A stretch of 8,992 nucleotides of DNA, from the NCBI GenBank assembly GCA_021790415.1, contig JAJYDZ010000043.1, positions 1-8,992 of the forward strand, in the 5' to 3' direction. The notes beneath the pieces were generated by a model that was not told the DNA's origin, did no database searches, and worked only from the letters and a program-made list of their open reading frames with translations. Every line of letters begins with the position of its first letter. The first letter of the stretch is position 1. Source of the stretch: Thermoplasmata archaeon. Lineage in GTDB: Archaea; Thermoplasmatota; Thermoplasmata; Thermoplasmatales; Thermoplasmataceae. The position numbers and the translations under genes were made by a program. This document shows, one piece after another, positions 2,170-8,992 of this stretch.

Positions 2170-3726
2170 GTGATCATAGATGAGGCATTCTTTGGGTTTT
2201 CTAGAACTGGAAACTTCGAAGGCAAGCGGTATCCTGCATTTTTAGACTGGAAAACCGATATCGTAAATGAAAGTTATTTTTCAATATTTGGAGAGATATT
2301 TTCAGATTCAAGGAAAATTAAGATCGGAAACACTGAGATAGGCATTAGAGAATCTGAAAGCATAATGATGATTGAAGATGCTGATTCAATCATTCAAAGA
2401 CCTAGAAACTTTATCAAAATTTTAATGGAAATCCACAAAATGAACAGGTACCATAAGCTTATTTATACTCCATTAATCGGTGATCCATACCTCTTTCCGG
2501 TTTTATCTCTGCTTGGCATATCATTCCAGGACAACTTTATATCATACATGGACGGAGCAGAAAAGATAGAATACAGATATATGGGAAGAATGAAAAGCAA
2601 TAGAAATTCAATAGATGCCAATTTAGTTTTTTTAAAAAACCTTTCGGAAGATGTTCAGACATCCATAAAGAATTATACACTCTTTGATATTGCGGAAAAA
2701 ATAAATTTATCTTCAAAATCTGTTGAGTTGCTTAGGATACTTGTAAACGAATATCAGAAAGAGTTTGAAGAGGTCTTCCCAAGGAGAACTCAAAGCATCA
2801 GGGCAGTATCAAATATCTCTCTTTCGAGGCCGGATATCTTGAGGTTTCAGAAATATATATCGGAGTATTATGTAAAGCCAGATGCCAGAACTATTTCTCT
2901 TTTTATACCATGTTCCGCAAGAAAACCTTATTCAGAATCCAAATCTCACAAGCGTCTCATAGAGGCCTTAAGTGACCTCAGAGGATTTCTCCATGAAATT
3001 ATAATTACTTCCCCATTGGGCTTAGTTCCAAGAGAACTTGAGGAAACCTATCCTGCCGCATTCTATGATGTTCCAGTTACGGGAAGATGGTCTTCAGAAG
3101 AAAAGGAAATGCTCTTCAATGTTACAAGTAACTATTTAACTCGGAACAAATATAAAAAATCCTTTGCATTATTGACTGATGACTATCTCTTTTCCGCAGA
3201 ATACTTGCCCGAGGGCGTTGAAATATTGAATTGGGATAAAAGTAATGAAGATAGCCTTATAAAATTGAGGAATAAGATTGGAGAATATGTAACAGAATAT
3301 AAACCTCCAAGAGTTAATGATTCAATAAGGGAAAAAATATTCTCCATATGCGAATACCAGTTTGGTGGCTGGATACTTCCATATATAAGTAAAGGGAAGA
3401 TAATTAAAAATTACAATCAGTTCATGATAGCCGTTGATGGGAAGCCTGCACTCATATATCAACAGGATAAAGGCAAGATGGCCATAAACAAAAATTTTAC
3501 TAAACCATTTATCGAGAACTCCAAGTTCCTTGTGGAGATTGACGATTTCAAACCCACAGCAAACATTTATGCAGTTGGTGTCATCTCAGCGACTTCTGAT
3601 ATAAGAGTTGAAGATGAGGTTGTATTGCATAATTCCGGTACCCCGAAGGGTGTTGGAACGGCGAAAATGCCCTTTCAAGCAATGAAAGAACTTGATAAAG
3701 GAATAGCTGTTAAAGTTAGAAATTAG
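2170..3726 (+). CDS. arcS: Archaeosine synthase (ArcS/TgtA2) with C-terminal PUA domain
   Basis: Enzyme that converts preQ0 at position 15 of archaeal tRNA, placed there by TGT, toward archaeosine (G+). The 518-aa chain has an N-terminal degenerate TGT-like part (about 1-200). The ArcS core follows, with the signature PCSARKPYSESKSH at 247-260 and the family stretch SPLGLVPRELEETYP at 281-295 followed by YDVPVTGRW (299-307). A linking domain contains YQFGGW (396-401). The C-terminal PUA RNA-binding domain (about 435-517) ends in the typical GVGTAKM and KGIAVKVR. No soluble neighbour tied to G+ synthesis is seen. The start is GTG at 2170: an in-frame TGA lies 9 nt upstream and the next ATG is at residue 66, inside the conserved N-terminal region. 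No SD is visible. The ArcS motif is intact. Whether a RaSEA-type radical SAM partner exists cannot be judged here. Confidence 0.94.
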   Translation: MIIDEAFFGFSRTGNFEGKRYPAFLDWKTDIVNESYFSIFGEIFSDSRKIKIGNTEIGIRESESIMMIEDADSIIQRPRNFIKILMEIHKMNRYHKLIYTPLIGDPYLFPVLSLLGISFQDNFISYMDGAEKIEYRYMGRMKSNRNSIDANLVFLKNLSEDVQTSIKNYTLFDIAEKINLSSKSVELLRILVNEYQKEFEEVFPRRTQSIRAVSNISLSRPDILRFQKYISEYYVKPDARTISLFIPCSARKPYSESKSHKRLIEALSDLRGFLHEIIITSPLGLVPRELEETYPAAFYDVPVTGRWSSEEKEMLFNVTSNYLTRNKYKKSFALLTDDYLFSAEYLPEGVEILNWDKSNEDSLIKLRNKIGEYVTEYKPPRVNDSIREKIFSICEYQFGGWILPYISKGKIIKNYNQFMIAVDGKPALIYQQDKGKMAINKNFTKPFIENSKFLVEIDDFKPTANIYAVGVISATSDIRVEDEVVLHNSGTPKGVGTAKMPFQAMKELDKGIAVKVRN

Positions 3727-3833: not shown

Positions 3834-6800
3834 ATGGTTAATATTTCACCTAAGGCTATTGCAATAATAATCGCGGCGATTATTATCGCCTCTTCATCAT
3901 TCTTTATCTTTCACGTTTCATATTCTACAGAAATTCCGAATTTAAAGATTCCTAAACTTCATCCACCACAAATATTTCAACAGGAGACTCAGCTATTGGC
4001 AGGTTCTACCTTAGGTACAACTTTTTCATTTGTGTCAAATGCAACTTTTAATTTGGAAGGTTACATTTATACAAATACGGGTAATGGGCCAACACCATTG
4101 GCAAACAAAGCCGCATATATCTATGTTTTTCCATGGGTTGATGAGGTAAAGACAACTTCAACCGGCTTTTATTCTGTAACCATAGTTCATTATGGTTCTT
4201 ATTCAGTAGGTTATACCGCACAAAACTTCACGGAAGTTACAAAATCATTTTCAATAATTCAGGGAAATTCAGACTGGCAAAATGTAACTTTATCTCCAGC
4301 AAATTTTTATAAGACAACTGGGAGTACTGTGCTTTCCAATGGAAGTTTAGTTCCAGATGTTCAGATTGTTTTCCATGCTTTCTTTGGAGATTACACAACT
4401 TTGTCTGCAAGCAATGGAACGTTTACTACAGATCTCCCTAGTGCAATGTATCTATCCATAACACTAAAGGGAGGTTATTATAAATTTCCAAAGCCTCTTT
4501 TCTTTAATGTCACTGGAGTTACAAATCATTTGACATTAACCATGAATAAAACCAATCAACTTCTATACTTCAATGTGAGTGGTTACCTTTTCAACAAAAT
4601 AGGCCAACCAGTAAGCGGGGGCGTTGTAAGTGATCTTTATCTTGGGAATGGTAGTTCTTCACCTCAAGTCATTGCGACCGCAACATCCATATTTAATGGT
4701 TCATACACCATTAAGGTTCCTGAAGGATATAGTTTACTGTACGCAAATGGTGCTCAATATCTATATAGTGTGATACCTGATGCCATTTCTGGGCTATCTT
4801 CGCCGGGTGTGATACTGTCCAACTTAAACATACTCCCAAAGCTTTTTGTAAACACTACGTTGTATAATGAAAACGCCACGTTAACAGCGAAGGATCCATT
4901 CTCACCAACCGGTATCGGGAACAATGGAACTCGGGTAATACCAATATATGGCAGAAACGAAGTCAACCATTTTCTAAAAGGTAACTATTCCACAATAAAT
5001 TATGGCAACGGTATTCCGTTTTCAACTCCAAGCTTACTTAGTTTTTCCATATTGAATATGAACGAATCTTATGCCCCACTTTCAAATTACCCAGTTGCTG
5101 TGCTTTCTAATATAAGTGGCACGCCTTATTATGAAACATTCTTTACAAATAGTACTGGGATCCTGCACGTTCCTGTATACTTTTCGGGGTATTATTCATT
5201 GGTTATTTTTATTCCGGGTTTTCATTCTGCTGAAGAGTTTGAAAGTAACGGAGCACTTCTTGCAGTATATCTCACTCCTCTAAGGGGTGAGTACTTTAAT
5301 ATTTCAGGATATATCCTAAACAAAGTCAATAGCGCACCATTAACCCCAGCGTTCGTTAATAACAGCTTATCCGGGTTATTTCCAGTAAACTATTCTTCAT
5401 CGTCTGGTATAAAGCCAGGCTATTATAGCTTCCATGTTTTTTATGATACGCATTTTCCTTTCCTATCAACGAATAACGTATCAGAGAAGTATGTAATTAA
5501 TGCTTCTTATCAAGGATTTGTTTCTGCTACTCTCGCAATAAATTTTACTAAGGGACAAAACCTTACAAATGAAAATATAACACTTGTTCCAGTTCAATGT
5601 ATAGGATACAATTCAAAAGGCACTCCTATTAAGGCGTGGAATGAAAAATCTTCTGGTATTCCAGGAATAAACGCAATAGATGTCACCGAGAACCTTTCTA
5701 GGGGTCAAAGTTCAAATTATATAACATATAATACATATGGCCCAATATCTCCCTATATAGCTAACATAACGGTGCTCAACACACAAAAGGTTGTAAATGG
5801 TGTCTACCCTCCAATGCCAAATCTACCCGTGCAGATTTTCTTCTTAGTGAATGGGGTAATTTATAACACGACAACCATTGCCAATAGTACAGGTGTGGCA
5901 CATTTGCATTTGTTATACATAATGTTATTCGCTAACCAAATTTATGCTATTAATTATGAGGAATCAGGTGTATATGTGTTATACAGTTCAAACCAAATAC
6001 ATGACAACTCCTCAGCTACCATGATTTCCAGAGATTCAGTATTAGTAACAGTAAAGCTTGAAAATTCATTTGCCCTTGATCACAAACTAAATTCACAAAA
6101 CATTTCGGTTTCAAATTCCAATCTTTCCGTTATTAATTCAACACTGCCAATAAATACAACATCAACATATCAAAATCCTTTGGTCGGAACAGAATTTAAT
6201 TATTCTCTTCCTCAGGGAAACTATTCATTTTTGTACAATAATCCCGGATTTGTGACCAAAGCTTTTTACTTTTTCAATAATGTATCATCATCGCAGAGAG
6301 AAACGAAGGAGTTAATTCAGGGATATGGGTTAGTATTTAACACAACAACAATATTGCCCTATTATATGAATGTGAATTATTCAAAGGATAATCAGGGAAT
6401 CTATGATACAAGCTTGTCATTCTCAAAATTCTTGGAGGGAAAGTACACTTTGAACTTGAGTATTAAGGAAATATCATTGAATTATGCAGTTTATTATAAT
6501 GTATCAAGACAGAATCCTACTCCATTATATTTCTGGAATTTTACTTCTAACGATCCGGTAGAGTACGTATGGTATAATACAACCTCCATTGTAATAAGGG
6601 GAATTAAAACAACAATGGTAGGAAGCGGGTCATACTTATATTTCAATAACACGGTTTTCAGCACCAATGGGGTTTCGGGATACTTATATAAATTCGCATT
6701 TAATGGAACAAATAACAACATAAGATACAATTTAACGGCAGGCACACAGGTTGATTTTAAGCAGTTGAATGCACTTTATACACTTAACACTGCGGCAAAT

Positions 6801-6953
6801 AATCTATCCATTGATCCTCTATATTATAATGGTCAAACAATGGAAATTTCTGTTATTGCCCTATATAATACAAATAATTTATTATCTTATCCATTAACAT
6901 TAACTTTATGGATGTATGAAACTCAGCATAACGGAATTCAGGCTAAGGAGTGA
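3834..6953 (+). CDS. Large N-terminally anchored surface protein with carboxypeptidase-regulatory/Ig-like repeats
   Basis: A 1039-aa extracytoplasmic protein. Residues 8-27 form one hydrophobic segment (AIAIIIAAIIIASSSFFIFH) after a short N-terminus with one Lys: a signal peptide or signal anchor, with no lipobox Cys. No second membrane span or sorting signal is seen at the hydrophilic C-terminus (HNGIQAKE), so the bulk is probably outside and tethered by its N-terminus. Carboxypeptidase-regulatory-like beta repeats are visible at about 71-152, 160-238 and 246-330. They follow the pattern GYIY/GYLF-x-P, then a Gly/Tyr-rich turn (NGSYTIKVPEGYS), then closing NVTL; another FNISGYILNK copy begins near residue 487. 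My hand count gives about 47 N-x-S/T sequons, one cysteine (PVQCIGYN) and about 9% Asp+Glu+Lys+Arg. This resembles heavily glycosylated surface proteins of acidophiles. No enzyme motif recognised. First gene of the MoxR cluster; its stop is 5 nt from the next ATG. Confidence 0.85.
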   Translation: MVNISPKAIAIIIAAIIIASSSFFIFHVSYSTEIPNLKIPKLHPPQIFQQETQLLAGSTLGTTFSFVSNATFNLEGYIYTNTGNGPTPLANKAAYIYVFPWVDEVKTTSTGFYSVTIVHYGSYSVGYTAQNFTEVTKSFSIIQGNSDWQNVTLSPANFYKTTGSTVLSNGSLVPDVQIVFHAFFGDYTTLSASNGTFTTDLPSAMYLSITLKGGYYKFPKPLFFNVTGVTNHLTLTMNKTNQLLYFNVSGYLFNKIGQPVSGGVVSDLYLGNGSSSPQVIATATSIFNGSYTIKVPEGYSLLYANGAQYLYSVIPDAISGLSSPGVILSNLNILPKLFVNTTLYNENATLTAKDPFSPTGIGNNGTRVIPIYGRNEVNHFLKGNYSTINYGNGIPFSTPSLLSFSILNMNESYAPLSNYPVAVLSNISGTPYYETFFTNSTGILHVPVYFSGYYSLVIFIPGFHSAEEFESNGALLAVYLTPLRGEYFNISGYILNKVNSAPLTPAFVNNSLSGLFPVNYSSSSGIKPGYYSFHVFYDTHFPFLSTNNVSEKYVINASYQGFVSATLAINFTKGQNLTNENITLVPVQCIGYNSKGTPIKAWNEKSSGIPGINAIDVTENLSRGQSSNYITYNTYGPISPYIANITVLNTQKVVNGVYPPMPNLPVQIFFLVNGVIYNTTTIANSTGVAHLHLLYIMLFANQIYAINYEESGVYVLYSSNQIHDNSSATMISRDSVLVTVKLENSFALDHKLNSQNISVSNSNLSVINSTLPINTTSTYQNPLVGTEFNYSLPQGNYSFLYNNPGFVTKAFYFFNNVSSSQRETKELIQGYGLVFNTTTILPYYMNVNYSKDNQGIYDTSLSFSKFLEGKYTLNLSIKEISLNYAVYYNVSRQNPTPLYFWNFTSNDPVEYVWYNTTSIVIRGIKTTMVGSGSYLYFNNTVFSTNGVSGYLYKFAFNGTNNNIRYNLTAGTQVDFKQLNALYTLNTAANNLSIDPLYYNGQTMEISVIALYNTNNLLSYPLTLTLWMYETQHNGIQAKE
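6945..6950 (+). promoter_or_regulatory. Shine-Dalgarno that sets the start of the 258-aa gene
   Basis: AAGGAG lies inside the last codons of the surface-protein gene, 8 nt before the ATG at 6959. It overlaps the alternative in-frame GTG at 6950, which would lie on the SD itself and cannot be served by it. ATG at 6959 is therefore preferred. Confidence 0.75.
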
Positions 6954-6958
6954 AAAAA

Positions 6959-7735
6959 ATGAGTAGTGATGAAAAAAACAACAATGAAAAAGATTCGGAC
7001 GTGATAGATTTCGAAGTAAAGAAAAAGACACAGAGTCTTAAGGAAAGCACAGCACCAACGAAGAAAAAGCCTAAGGGAAAGGATATGCCAGAAGCAGACA
7101 AGAAAGAACAGATTCCAGAAGAGGTAAAGGTAAATAATAAACAAAATGAAAGCCTAAAGGTACCTATTGCGGAGCAACCAAAGAAGGCTCAGACTAAAAT
7201 AGAAGTTCCGGTAGCTAAAAAGAAGAAATCATGGTGGGGTAGAAACAAAGGTCCGAGATCCGCTGAGACAAGAACAGTAGTTGAAATAAAAACTCTAGGT
7301 GACATACCCCCTATTGTTGAGGTAAGAAAACTAATAGGAAATGGAGATAAGAACGAAGGTACTGTAAGGGGATTTAACCTGGCAAAAGGAGATATAGCAA
7401 GGTCTTTTAACACAGTTCAAAAACCAGGAGAGAGCAATAGGAAGTTTTTGGTTAGGATTCTAAGAGAGGCAGGAATTGAGATTCCAGATGAAGCCTATGT
7501 GGATAACACTGCATTAAAAAATGCAATGAAAAACTCACTTTCCAGTTCTGAATCTAACAAAATAGATGCTCTAAAGAAATTGGCATTTTTCTATATCGAT
7601 TATTATGAAAAGGCCAAATTCTCAAATGAAGTTTATTCTACCGACGATGACATTATTGACAGACTTATGGATTTATATAATTACCTAGATGTTGCCAAGC
7701 TCTATTATCCATCACATGAACAAGGTAGGAGGTAA
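6959..7735 (+). CDS. Charged cytoplasmic protein with DUF4129-like C-terminal region
   Basis: 258 aa from the ATG at 6959; a GTG at 6950 would add three residues. Residues 1-90 are low-complexity, rich in Lys, Glu, Asn and Pro and probably disordered, ending in a basic-aromatic patch (KKKKSWWGRNKG, 87-98) that could touch membrane or nucleic acid. Residues 105-150 look folded (VVEIKTLGDIPP). Residues about 157-245 are helical: GESNRKFLVRILREAG, a spacer, then FYIDYYEKAKFSNEVYSTDD and DRLMDLYNYLD. This matches the layout of DUF4129 (a PxEY/L-type helix, then LYERARYS-like helix with acidic turn), a domain often found at the C-terminus of membrane transglutaminase-like proteins encoded with MoxR and DUF58. 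The match is by eye, supported by the MoxR gene downstream. No membrane segment or signal peptide. The next gene starts 8 nt after its stop. Confidence 0.75.
   Translation: MSSDEKNNNEKDSDVIDFEVKKKTQSLKESTAPTKKKPKGKDMPEADKKEQIPEEVKVNNKQNESLKVPIAEQPKKAQTKIEVPVAKKKKSWWGRNKGPRSAETRTVVEIKTLGDIPPIVEVRKLIGNGDKNEGTVRGFNLAKGDIARSFNTVQKPGESNRKFLVRILREAGIEIPDEAYVDNTALKNAMKNSLSSSESNKIDALKKLAFFYIDYYEKAKFSNEVYSTDDDIIDRLMDLYNYLDVAKLYYPSHEQGRR
7728..7733 (+). promoter_or_regulatory. Shine-Dalgarno supporting the TTG start at 7744
   Basis: GGAGGT, a full-strength SD, overlaps the TAA stop of the preceding gene (7733-7735) and ends 10 nt before TTG at 7744. A second purine run, GGGAG at 7736-7740, is only 3 nt away. 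The first in-frame ATG is 126 nt further on, after the membrane segment, so the SD argues for the TTG. Confidence 0.65.
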
Positions 7736-7743
7736 GGGAGAAA

Positions 7744-8238
7744 TTGAGTATACCAACTTCGGCTGCTCTGAGCCCATCGCTAATTATTTCTGAACTTGAG
7801 GCTAATCCATATGTCTTGCTGGCATTCGCAGTTCCAATAATAGTTATAATCGCCGGTTCAATAGCAATGACCATTGGTAAGGCAAAGGCCAGATATGATG
7901 CAGTTCCTACATTGGCCCAGAGTAAAGAGCAGTTTAAGGTCCCGGCAAGTTCGTTCAACAGGGAGATGAAATACGTGGAAGACGAAGATATTAGCCATTT
8001 TTTTAACGCAATTGAGACAGATATGGGCAAAATTCAGGATGTAATGAAAAAATATGAAAGGTTACTAAAATTATATAAAAAACTGGATTTAAAATCAAAG
8101 TCAATATCAGAGAGAAGAGCAGAAAAAGCAAAAGAAAAGAAAGAGTTAGTTTTTAAAGATATAGTGGAGATATACAGGTACATAGAAAAATTAAAAACAA
8201 AAGGGTTTGCATATGGAGATAAAGGAAAACAGGCTTGA
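7744..8238 (+). CDS. Single-span membrane protein with charged helical cytoplasmic tail
   Basis: 164 aa with a TTG start supported by a GGAGGT SD; an in-frame stop lies 18 nt upstream. A short N-terminal part (1-22) is followed by one hydrophobic span at about 23-45 (YVLLAFAVPIIVIIAGSIAM), then basic GKAKAR. By the positive-inside rule the N-terminus is outside and the rest cytoplasmic. The tail is predicted mainly helical and strongly charged, with likely coiled-coil parts at about 85-115 (NAIETDMGKIQDVMKKYERL) and 118-152 (RRAEKAKEKKELVFKDIVE). I do not recognise a family. It lies between the DUF4129-like gene and moxR, 8 nt after the first and overlapping the second by 26 nt. A role as membrane docking or adaptor subunit for the MoxR ATPase is inferred from context only. 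Confidence 0.8.
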   Translation: MSIPTSAALSPSLIISELEANPYVLLAFAVPIIVIIAGSIAMTIGKAKARYDAVPTLAQSKEQFKVPASSFNREMKYVEDEDISHFFNAIETDMGKIQDVMKKYERLLKLYKKLDLKSKSISERRAEKAKEKKELVFKDIVEIYRYIEKLKTKGFAYGDKGKQA

Positions 8239-8992
8239 AGAAATAAATATGGATTCTCTGCAGGAGGTAAGAAATATAGTTTATTCAATGCAGAGTGAAA
8301 TAGGTCAGAGAGTTATCGGTTATGAGAAAATTGTAATGTTTATGCTTATCAGCTTAATAAGCAATAATCATATAATGCTTGAAGGGGTACCAGGGTTGGC
8401 AAAAACTTATCTTGCCAATGAATTCTCCAAGCACCTGAATGTGGTATTCAAGCGAATTCAGTTCACACCAGATATGTTACCATCAGATGTAACAGGAAAT
8501 ATGATATTTAATCTTGAAACAAGAAAGCTAGAGTTCAGACCGGGGCCAGTTTTCTGTAATGTGCTTCTTGCAGATGAGATAAATAGAACACCTGCCAAGG
8601 TTCAATCAGCGCTGCTTGAAACCATGGAAGAGAAGCAGGTTTCCGTCTGGGGTGAAATCAGACCTCTACCCAAGCCATTCCTTGTCATAGCGACACAGAA
8701 TCCTGTAGAGCAGGAGGGTACTTTCCCTGTTGCAGAAGCTTTAATGGATAGATTCCTTTTCAGGTATATTCTAACCTACCCGACCCGGGAACAGGAATTG
8801 AGTATGTTAAGGAGAGATTTGAGACCATTAAGTTCAATGAGCTATCTTGATCCAGATAAAATTTTACAACTGCGAGACTTGGTCGATCATGTTTATGTCT
8901 CAACAGATTTGCAGCATTATATGGTTGATTTCATAAGACGTACCAGAGAAAATAGTAAGATATATTTGGGAGCTAGTCCAAGAACAACAATG
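8213..8992 (+). CDS. moxR: MoxR-family AAA+ ATPase, C-terminus cut off by window end
   Basis: Cytoplasmic AAA+ ATPase; MoxR members act as chaperone-like remodelers in assembly or activation of protein complexes, often with VWA or DUF58 partners. The 260 residues present show Walker A GVPGLAKT (58-65), Walker B VLLADEINR (117-125, D121 and E122), the MoxR-type FTPDMLPSDVTG (84-95) and RPGPVF (109-114), LLETMEEKQVSV (134-145), sensor 1 ATQNP (160-164, N163), the LMDRF Arg (R180) and the sensor 2 motif GASPR (253-257). Family length is about 310-330, so only the lid end is missing. The ORF is open to the last base. Start: ATG 8213 overlaps the previous gene by 26 nt; ATG 8249 (MDSLQEV) is an alternative closer to the typical N-terminus. 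Neither has a strong SD. All catalytic residues are intact, so it is probably active. Confidence 0.95.
   Translation, partial: MEIKENRLEEINMDSLQEVRNIVYSMQSEIGQRVIGYEKIVMFMLISLISNNHIMLEGVPGLAKTYLANEFSKHLNVVFKRIQFTPDMLPSDVTGNMIFNLETRKLEFRPGPVFCNVLLADEINRTPAKVQSALLETMEEKQVSVWGEIRPLPKPFLVIATQNPVEQEGTFPVAEALMDRFLFRYILTYPTREQELSMLRRDLRPLSSMSYLDPDKILQLRDLVDHVYVSTDLQHYMVDFIRRTRENSKIYLGASPRTTM

Follow-up and report, generated by a model that had tools for sequence, protein, structure and literature searches.

Gene content, conservation and possible role of a MoxR-DUF58 cassette with a surface protein in Thermoplasmata

Gene content and conservation of the cassette

Here we analyse a stretch of 8,992 nucleotides (nt) from a Thermoplasmata archaeon (assembly GCA_021790415.1, contig JAJYDZ010000043.1), called the window in what follows, whose right part carries the beginning of a gene cassette. 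Four genes of the cassette, encoding a large surface protein (SURF), two small proteins (P2 and P3) and a MoxR ATPase, lie in the window on one strand, and all their open reading frames are present. The features are the following:

3834..6953, plus strand: SURF, 1039 amino acids (aa), first gene of the cassette
6950..7735, plus strand: P2, start GTG 6950 or ATG 6959
7744..8238, plus strand: P3, TTG start behind AGGAGGT
8207..8992, plus strand: MoxR AAA+ ATPase, cut by the window end; start TTG 8207, ATG 8213 or ATG 8252
2170..3726, plus strand: archaeosine synthase subunit alpha-like gene, left border, outside the cassette

Starting at GTG 6950, P2 overlaps the SURF stop by 4 nt, while the start at ATG 6959 leaves a gap of 5 nt; P3 at TTG 7744 begins 8 nt after P2, and MoxR at ATG 8213 overlaps P3 by 26 nt. 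A previous sequence-only reading of the window had described four co-directional genes with gaps of 5 and 8 nt and a 26-nt overlap, which is correct for the starts chosen (ATG 6959, TTG 7744 and ATG 8213), and had suggested looking for DUF58 or vWA genes past position 8992. A DUF58 gene was indeed found behind MoxR in the nearest genome, G001, which is 100% identical to the window over positions 6800-8992, and in E-plasma (KI542675.1, a 911-kb contig), which together with Thermoplasmata metagenome-assembled genomes provides the near relatives in named records; the DNA thus comes from a member of the Thermoplasmatales near E-plasma. The order past the window in G001 and E-plasma is MoxR, DUF58, P6 and then an amidohydrolase, the DUF58 protein having 440 aa and overlapping MoxR by 4 nt, and P6 having 293 aa with seven to eight hydrophobic segments. 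The cluster hence comprises at least six genes, not four.

To follow the gene order we used 26 loci around MoxR or P2 from two families, f1 and f9, two of which are relocated P2 sites (L092 and L097), so that 24 remain. SURF, P2, P3, MoxR and DUF58 follow each other on one strand in 22 of these 24 loci, the order being thus conserved in related archaea, and P6 stands behind DUF58 in all 22 except L005, whose contig stops short. The two loci that deviate from the order, G111 and G149, lack P2 only, and the case of surface and small genes that are never beside moxR, with no DUF58 gene nearby, does not occur. Distances in the 24 loci range from -4 to 21 nt between SURF and P2, from -53 to 46 nt between P2 and P3 and from -43 to 7 nt between P3 and MoxR; DUF58 is adjacent to MoxR in all 24, with an overlap of 4 nt in 23 of them and of 1 nt in the remaining one. 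Starts were taken as the first possible ones, so these overlaps are upper bounds. The gene labels of the 24 loci come from models in which most of these rows are themselves included, and the independent test is the one made with models from f1 only (see below).

Among the 77 genomes of f1, P2 is present in 67, SURF relatives in 68 and MoxR in 72 (counting a paralogue of about 40% identity). In 63 of 67 genomes P2 is located 450-885 nt upstream of MoxR, a distance that can accommodate P3, and in 61 of 66 SURF is found no more than 1.1 kb upstream of P2. All four exceptions to the P2-MoxR distance belong to genus g55; the fifth exception to the SURF-P2 distance is G165, in whose assembly a stretch of N breaks up the SURF gene, and the sole genome with P2 and without SURF, G164, has a contig that ends about 140 nt past P2. 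Median pairwise identities within f1 are 61% for MoxR, 35% for both DUF58 and P2, 25% for P3, 24% for SURF and 23% for P6. Because the order recurs at such low protein identities across the family, and again in a second family, the cluster is not a product of chance. In that second family the whole cassette was found in four genomes (G009, G032, G050 and G073) of at least eight drawn, with SURF, P2, P3 and P6 sharing 9-20% identity with those of f1. Models built from f1 only reached the f9 proteins with E-values (E) of 2.3e-73 to 8e-98 for SURF, 6.3e-23 to 7.7e-32 for P6 and 9.7e-9 to 7.2e-6 for P2, and the P3 proteins of both families are linked by profile comparison (97.6%, E 4.3e-12).

The genes are also absent together. 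In the 35 f1 genomes with a completeness of at least 90% and a contamination of at most 5%, P2, MoxR and SURF are each found in 33, and G025 and G129 lack all three. In these two genomes the archaeosine synthase and amidohydrolase genes, which border the cassette in E-plasma, are adjacent on one strand, separated by 30 nt in G025 and by 374 nt in G129. Since the cassette also occurs in f9, its loss as a unit would be the simpler reading of the empty sites. G025 is presumably Picrophilus, and it has no actin gene, which is consistent with that genus (36 of the 77 f1 genomes have one); the actin of another genome, G083, is letter for letter Ta0583, which makes G083 T. acidophilum, whose SURF gene lies at L088:10844-13597 on the minus strand. 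The actin gene is reported missing in Picrophilus, and S-layers have been seen by microscopy among Thermoplasmatales only in that genus (PMC10354927). The tie between cassette loss and S-layer gain is a lead, not a result.

The surroundings of the cassette are more variable. Genus g33 has no amidohydrolase behind it, and in genus g30 the cassette occupies another site, away from the archaeosine synthase gene. In the window the left border gene scores 594.6 bits with NF053620, just below the cut-off of 600; near it, at 675-1022 and 1060-2028, lie a DUF488 'inactive N3i' protein and, on the minus strand, what look like an LSm gene and a Csl4-type exosome gene, and the Csl4-like gene borders the archaeosine synthase gene in several relatives too. 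A mobile or plasmid origin was rejected, as window positions 6950-8992 gave no near plasmid match and the window holds no tRNA and no Rfam feature, and a defence system was rejected as well, PADLOC giving only a marginal AAA+ match (DolB, E 5.8e-4).

The encoded proteins

Each of 20 SURF members starts with a short tail (4-7 residues in f1, 9-17 in f9) followed by one hydrophobic segment, the window protein showing one such N-terminal segment, and 18 of the 20 (f1 and f9) have no second strong one. The pair Y-P occurs within 55 residues after the segment in 17 of the 20, the window protein being without it, and lengths in f1 vary between 525 and 1179 aa. SURF carries a CarboxypepD_reg domain (PF13620, 38.3 bits, cut-off 32.3), as do all of 20 relatives at E up to 0.01, and against solved structures it matches NOMO2, a SusC homologue and carboxypeptidase N. 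The window protein contains 48 N-x-S/T sequons, where composition shuffles give 21.3 (z 6.7), and its relatives have 33-78 each (4.6-7.0 per 100 aa), with z between 5.5 and 12.3 against shuffles in 20 of 20. The heavy glycosylation that had been proposed for the surface protein is thus matched, on the level of sequence, by this richness in N-glycosylation sequons throughout the group. SURF is presumably an N-terminally anchored, sequon-rich surface protein with one or more CarboxypepD_reg/immunoglobulin (Ig)-like domains.

P2 has no hydrophobic span and P3 has one, in agreement with their earlier description as a soluble and a one-span membrane protein. P2 consists of a variable, charged N-terminus and a conserved, DUF4129-related C-terminal part. 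None of 22 aligned P2 members gave a match of its own to DUF4129 (PF13559) at E up to 5; the DUF4129-like character assigned by the sequence-only reading stands instead through intermediates in a further family, f10. The comparison of f1 P2 with the soluble f10 proteins gave 97.4% (hhalign) over 129 columns, and PF13559 was found at E up to 1 in six of nine of these (best 6.5e-8), with 33.8 bits in G074 and 24.8 bits (with neighbours) in G109, the cut-off being 24.8. In a set collected with DUF4129 as the criterion, the P2 model ranked DUF4129 proteins behind those of f10, with E of 0.017 or higher, and the direct profile comparison of f1 P2 with DUF4129 proteins of about 300 aa gave 69.7%. 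Counting against the link, f10 P2 reached 7.2% with that set and 3.4% with the single-chain proteins described below, both in register. On these comparisons P2 is a soluble, diverged relative of DUF4129, linked via intermediates. Solved structures gave nothing for P2 (one nanobody, E 0.98), and P3 or P6 as a hidden DUF4129 part was rejected at profile probabilities of 1.4% and 2.3%. The relocated P2 of genus g55 (L092:8645-9980, L097:8673-10025) adjoins a protein with two to three spans, which in L092 has a SHOCT domain (27.3 bits, cut-off 27), and P2 of L092 itself has a SHOCT-like tail below the cut-off.

An AlphaFold2 model of P3 made from 20 sequences has the span at residues 22-47 and a helical hairpin (83-118 and 123-159) behind it that is predicted to be cytoplasmic; the block-mean predicted local distance difference test (pLDDT) is 80-91 over residues 91-150, with 66 for the whole protein and a predicted template modelling score (pTM) of 0.40. 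Foldseek against the PDB gave nothing significant for this model (best E 0.99, mostly short helical matches). P6 gave only a weak ion-channel match to solved structures (E 0.0019), which was not used.

MoxR matches PF07726 (1.4e-59, 200.1 bits, cut-off 27), has 330 aa at full length in G001 and E-plasma, and has 2r44 as its closest solved chain (E 5.3e-75). Of the motifs taken as those of an AAA_3 domain, Walker motifs included, ATQNP is present in all of 18 orthologues, GVPGLAKT exactly in 16 and LLADEINR exactly in five. The DUF58 protein (PF01882, 2.9e-13, 50 bits, cut-off 23.4) starts with what reads like a two-helix hairpin, and because of this putative hairpin its von Willebrand factor A (vWA)-like domain would lie on the cytosolic side with MoxR. 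An intact metal-ion-dependent adhesion site (MIDAS) of a vWA domain reads DxSxS...T...D; most DUF58 members have a MIDAS-like D-Y-[SG]-x-[SG], the first Asp being near-invariant. The DUF58 frame of the E-plasma reference (L003:10945-12168) is shorter than that of G001 by 33 residues, and 92 nt separate it from P6, apparently through a frameshift or an error in sequencing.

A second MoxR-DUF58-type cluster was seen in five f1 genomes (L081:7557-12768, L082, L083, L084 and L085), with a 2-span protein of 372-428 aa, a 5-6-span protein of 364-376 aa, a second MoxR, a DUF58-type protein (PF01882 at 6.6e-7 in L081, the sole one scanned) and a 4-6-span protein. In G068 a large thermopsin-family protease (PF05317, 2.3e-65; L082:4167-7508, minus strand) adjoins it.

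Related clusters and known systems

The f1-only P2 model found P2 in seven of seven f10 loci (E 3.9e-10 to 0.0098), and P2 is followed there by a one-span frame (in loci where it can be called), MoxR, DUF58 and, where the contig allows, a frame with seven to eight spans. G148 (E 1.8e-11) and G074 (4.9e-5) have a SURF-like gene immediately before P2, G128 shows the end of one (4.9e-5 with the f1 plus f9 model), and G109 has a Kelch protein at the place of SURF by position only (E 8). The C-terminus of all seven SURF-like proteins of f10 consists of a span with a short tail behind it, and where P2 follows, the gap is 64, 87 or 95 nt, or there is a 4-nt overlap. Three of the genes (L077:3759-6962, L079:11563-14037 and L080:5003-8203) encode Kelch propellers with a C-terminal span, two of these proteins having several CarboxypepD_reg stretches. 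In family f14 (G014 and G060; loci L072 and L073) the cluster encodes no SURF; it begins with a DUF4129 protein of about 300 aa with four spans and continues with a one-span protein, MoxR, DUF58 and a further protein of four spans. It resembles the cassette in having DUF4129 first, a one-span protein second, and DUF58 and a multi-span protein behind MoxR, and it differs in that DUF4129 is fused to four spans, no SURF is adjacent and the one-span proteins are not detectably alike.

Of 150 genomes of the class Thermoplasmata, 78 have a PF13559 match above the cut-off. Apart from the proteins of about 300 aa, which have four predicted spans in ten of 11 aligned and three in one, we sampled six single-chain proteins of 709-791 aa from other Thermoplasmata (L152-L157). 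All six have an N-terminal segment and a span before DUF4129 (two have a third segment), match PF13559 (four over the cut-off) and match Big_3_5 at E up to 0.1 (two over the cut-off), and none of the six matches a transglutaminase at E up to 0.1; their large middle part is presumably extracellular. A 2-span protein of 364-391 aa follows the single-chain gene in five of six loci, and DUF4350 was recognised in both of those scanned (67.3 and 65.9 bits, cut-off 30.4). MoxR lies one gene from the single-chain protein in L152, L153 and L157; no MoxR appeared in the stretches retrieved for L154-L156. These clusters look like a second, GldG-like version of the MoxR/DUF4129 theme.

The single-chain proteins have the same order of anchored ectodomain, span and DUF4129 as the f10 SURF (with its span) and P2 taken together; they differ from the cassette in being one polypeptide and in having DUF4350 between this and MoxR. 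From this architecture it is plausible that a SURF-span-DUF4129 chain came to be divided into separate genes, the direction, split or fusion, being possible either way, and a second possible parent of P2 is the DUF4129 protein of about 300 aa, mostly with four spans. The sequence-only reading had proposed that the functions of a membrane protein of the transglutaminase-DUF4129 kind may be divided among three polypeptides. The division stays plausible in view of the single-chain Ig-like-span-DUF4129 relatives, but Transglut_core is absent from 72 of 77 f1 genomes and from the cassette proteins scanned, and profile comparison of SURF or P2 with the single-chain proteins (3.9% and 0.7%) does not establish homology.

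In the literature we found no description of this cassette, as the sequence-only reading had supposed, although the combination of a surface protein with MoxR and DUF58/vWA has been published as a theme (PMC8430577, PMC5898192). Like the cassette, the bifidobacterial operon PFNA (pkb2-fn3-aaa-duf58-tgm) has a large secreted glycoprotein (there with fibronectin-type domains) directly upstream of MoxR and DUF58, and its authors suggest that MoxR may help to fold FN3 (PMC8430577). The order surface protein, MoxR, DUF58 is shared, with P2 and P3 placed in between in the cassette. PFNA has in addition a transglutaminase membrane partner and a leading Ser/Thr kinase, no match to which was found in the cassette proteins scanned, whereas P2, P3, the 7-span protein and an archaeal host are particular to the cassette. 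The predicted arCOG01314 secretion system (Makarova et al. 2015, PMC5898192) likewise combines a MoxR/GvpN-family ATPase, a vWA protein and surface and small membrane proteins, the vWA protein having an Ig-like part and the surface proteins being Ig-like or S-layer-like. Its GldG-like protein is listed as absent from Thermoplasmata, and the available part of that paper does not mention DUF4129, P2 or P3 for the system (PMC5898192). We infer from the GldG-type match that DUF4350 stands for arCOG01314; the cassette proteins scanned are without a DUF4350 match.

A proposed machine for the surface protein and its alternatives

On the sequence evidence we hold it somewhat more probable than improbable that the four cassette genes of the window form the left part of an operon of six genes, SURF-P2-P3-MoxR-DUF58-P6, which acts as one functional unit in Thermoplasmata, and, jointly, that a dedicated MoxR-DUF58 machine on the cytosolic face matures or assembles SURF. 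The steps from motor to client are ones that we infer, beside the observed conservation, gene coupling and joint absence. The N-terminal helix would keep SURF in the membrane, and the body of the protein, N-glycosylated and rich in beta structure, would make or join the unordered protein coat of the S-layer-less Thermoplasmatales. MoxR would assemble into a ring powered by ATP and bind the DUF58 protein, itself anchored in the membrane, at its vWA-like domain, and the soluble DUF4129-like P2, the one-span P3 and the seven-span P6 may couple this ring to SURF. Acting from the cytosolic side, hydrolysis of ATP would then mature, unlock or assemble complexes of SURF, in the manner of NorQ-NorD on nitric oxide reductase, with SURF and not an enzyme as the dedicated client. 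In NorQ-NorD and RavA-ViaA the partner is not known to be a membrane-anchored DUF58 protein, and the clients, unlike SURF, are respiratory enzymes. These pairs of a MoxR AAA+ protein with a vWA-type partner provide the working model of the motor (PMC9976466, PMC13036017, PMC3893208). In NorQD the MoxR ring takes up its vWA partner and remodels a membrane client (PMC9976466, PMC13036017). The earlier proposal of an ATPase machine that assembles or remodels the surface protein may thus hold in this form, and our confidence in it is higher because the single-chain proteins tie an Ig-like ectodomain to DUF4129 and MoxR.

Several observations weigh against this dedicated machine. In genus g55 P2 is located elsewhere in the genome while the other cassette genes are still together, so that P2 need not be co-transcribed, and SURF occurs without P2 in two genomes, G185 (where the match reaches the contig end) and G204. 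The SURF-like genes of the f10 genomes G122, G042 and G116 (E 8.3e-19, 4.6e-17 and 2.9e-4) have the opposite orientation and stand at the far end of the cluster, and none was seen in G022 before the contig end. With the f1-only P3 model the four f9 P3 proteins rank first but at E of 0.014 to 0.78, and the likeness of P3 between f1 and f10 is one of position, with a profile probability of 11%. Profile scans, foreseen in the sequence-only reading, gave CarboxypepD_reg for SURF and DUF4129 kinship for P2, but no recognisable family for P3, nor for P6. The MIDAS motif of DUF58 is degenerate in many members (DYGNG or DYGIG, with DYSSS in some). The AlphaFold2 model of SURF from 11 sequences failed (pLDDT 35, pTM 0.29), so that any further domains beside CarboxypepD_reg are putative. 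Finally, a cryo-electron microscopy study of 2025 reported for two species no S-layer-like gene and no well-expressed S-layer homologue, and SURF is not mentioned in its available part (PMC12448462).

Among the other explanations, the least unlikely, though still a minority view for us, is that MoxR-DUF58 with P3 and P6 helps to export or insert several surface proteins and that SURF is merely the one encoded alongside. Secretion was predicted in other archaea from just such a set of MoxR/GvpN ATPase, vWA, Ig-like, S-layer-like and membrane proteins (PMC5898192), whose GldG-like component likely matches the DUF4350 proteins of the other Thermoplasmata clusters; P6 could be a channel part, and some genomes have weak SURF matches elsewhere. 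For an N-terminally anchored protein, however, the Sec pathway is enough, DUF4350 has no match in the cassette proteins scanned, and the joint absence of SURF, P2 and MoxR fits a single dedicated client better. We consider it improbable that the cassette signals, with SURF sensing the outside and the state of SURF, P3 and P6 being read by P2, DUF58 and MoxR acting on a cytosolic target. SURF does evolve fast (24% identity compared with 61% for MoxR) and varies in length, as ligand-facing proteins can, its f10 counterparts include Kelch propellers, and in the PFNA operon of bifidobacteria a kinase accompanies the same core (PMC8430577); yet the cytosolic tail of SURF has only 4-7 residues in f1 and 9-17 in f9, and no kinase, DNA-binding or second-messenger domain was found in the cassette proteins scanned.

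Less credible again is the maturation of an unrelated metalloenzyme or respiratory complex by MoxR, DUF58, P2, P3 and P6, with SURF co-transcribed by history only. This is the role of the well-studied MoxR-vWA pairs NorQD (PMC9976466) and RavA-ViaA (PMC3893208), and the f14 clusters combine MoxR and DUF58 with membrane partners without SURF, but the adjacency of SURF in 61 of 66 genomes and its absence jointly with the rest argue against it, and no such metalloenzyme is labelled at the borders, where most neighbours are unscanned. A chance neighbourhood or an artefact of a single assembly, which the window alone could not exclude, is refuted by the recurrence of the order in two families, where 22 of 24 loci have it, and on the 911-kb E-plasma contig, and we give it practically no credence.

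Carrying the dedicated machine further, Cuniculiplasma and Oxyplasma have a dense, unordered exterior protein layer of 20 nm made of unidentified proteins (PMC12448462), and by its anchor segment, sequon load and domain type SURF is a candidate component of an S-layer or exterior layer. A bolder proposal, which we put forward as speculative and rather doubtful, is that SURF would be a main component of the coat of about 20 nm and that the cassette would be a divided Ig-like-span-DUF4129 protein, a dedicated ATP-driven machine for coat assembly whose genes disappeared together wherever a true S-layer replaced the coat. Under such a proposal the empty site of G025 would be a case of an S-layer replacing the cassette.

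How cells without a wall or S-layer survive in extreme acid is an old question, and the study of 2025 left the identity of the coat open (PMC12448462). The cassette offers a candidate for the coat together with a possible machine for building it in a sequenced model species, T. acidophilum (G083). The common and unexplained theme of MoxR, DUF58 and DUF4129 would in this way gain a likely client and a natural experiment of gain and loss.

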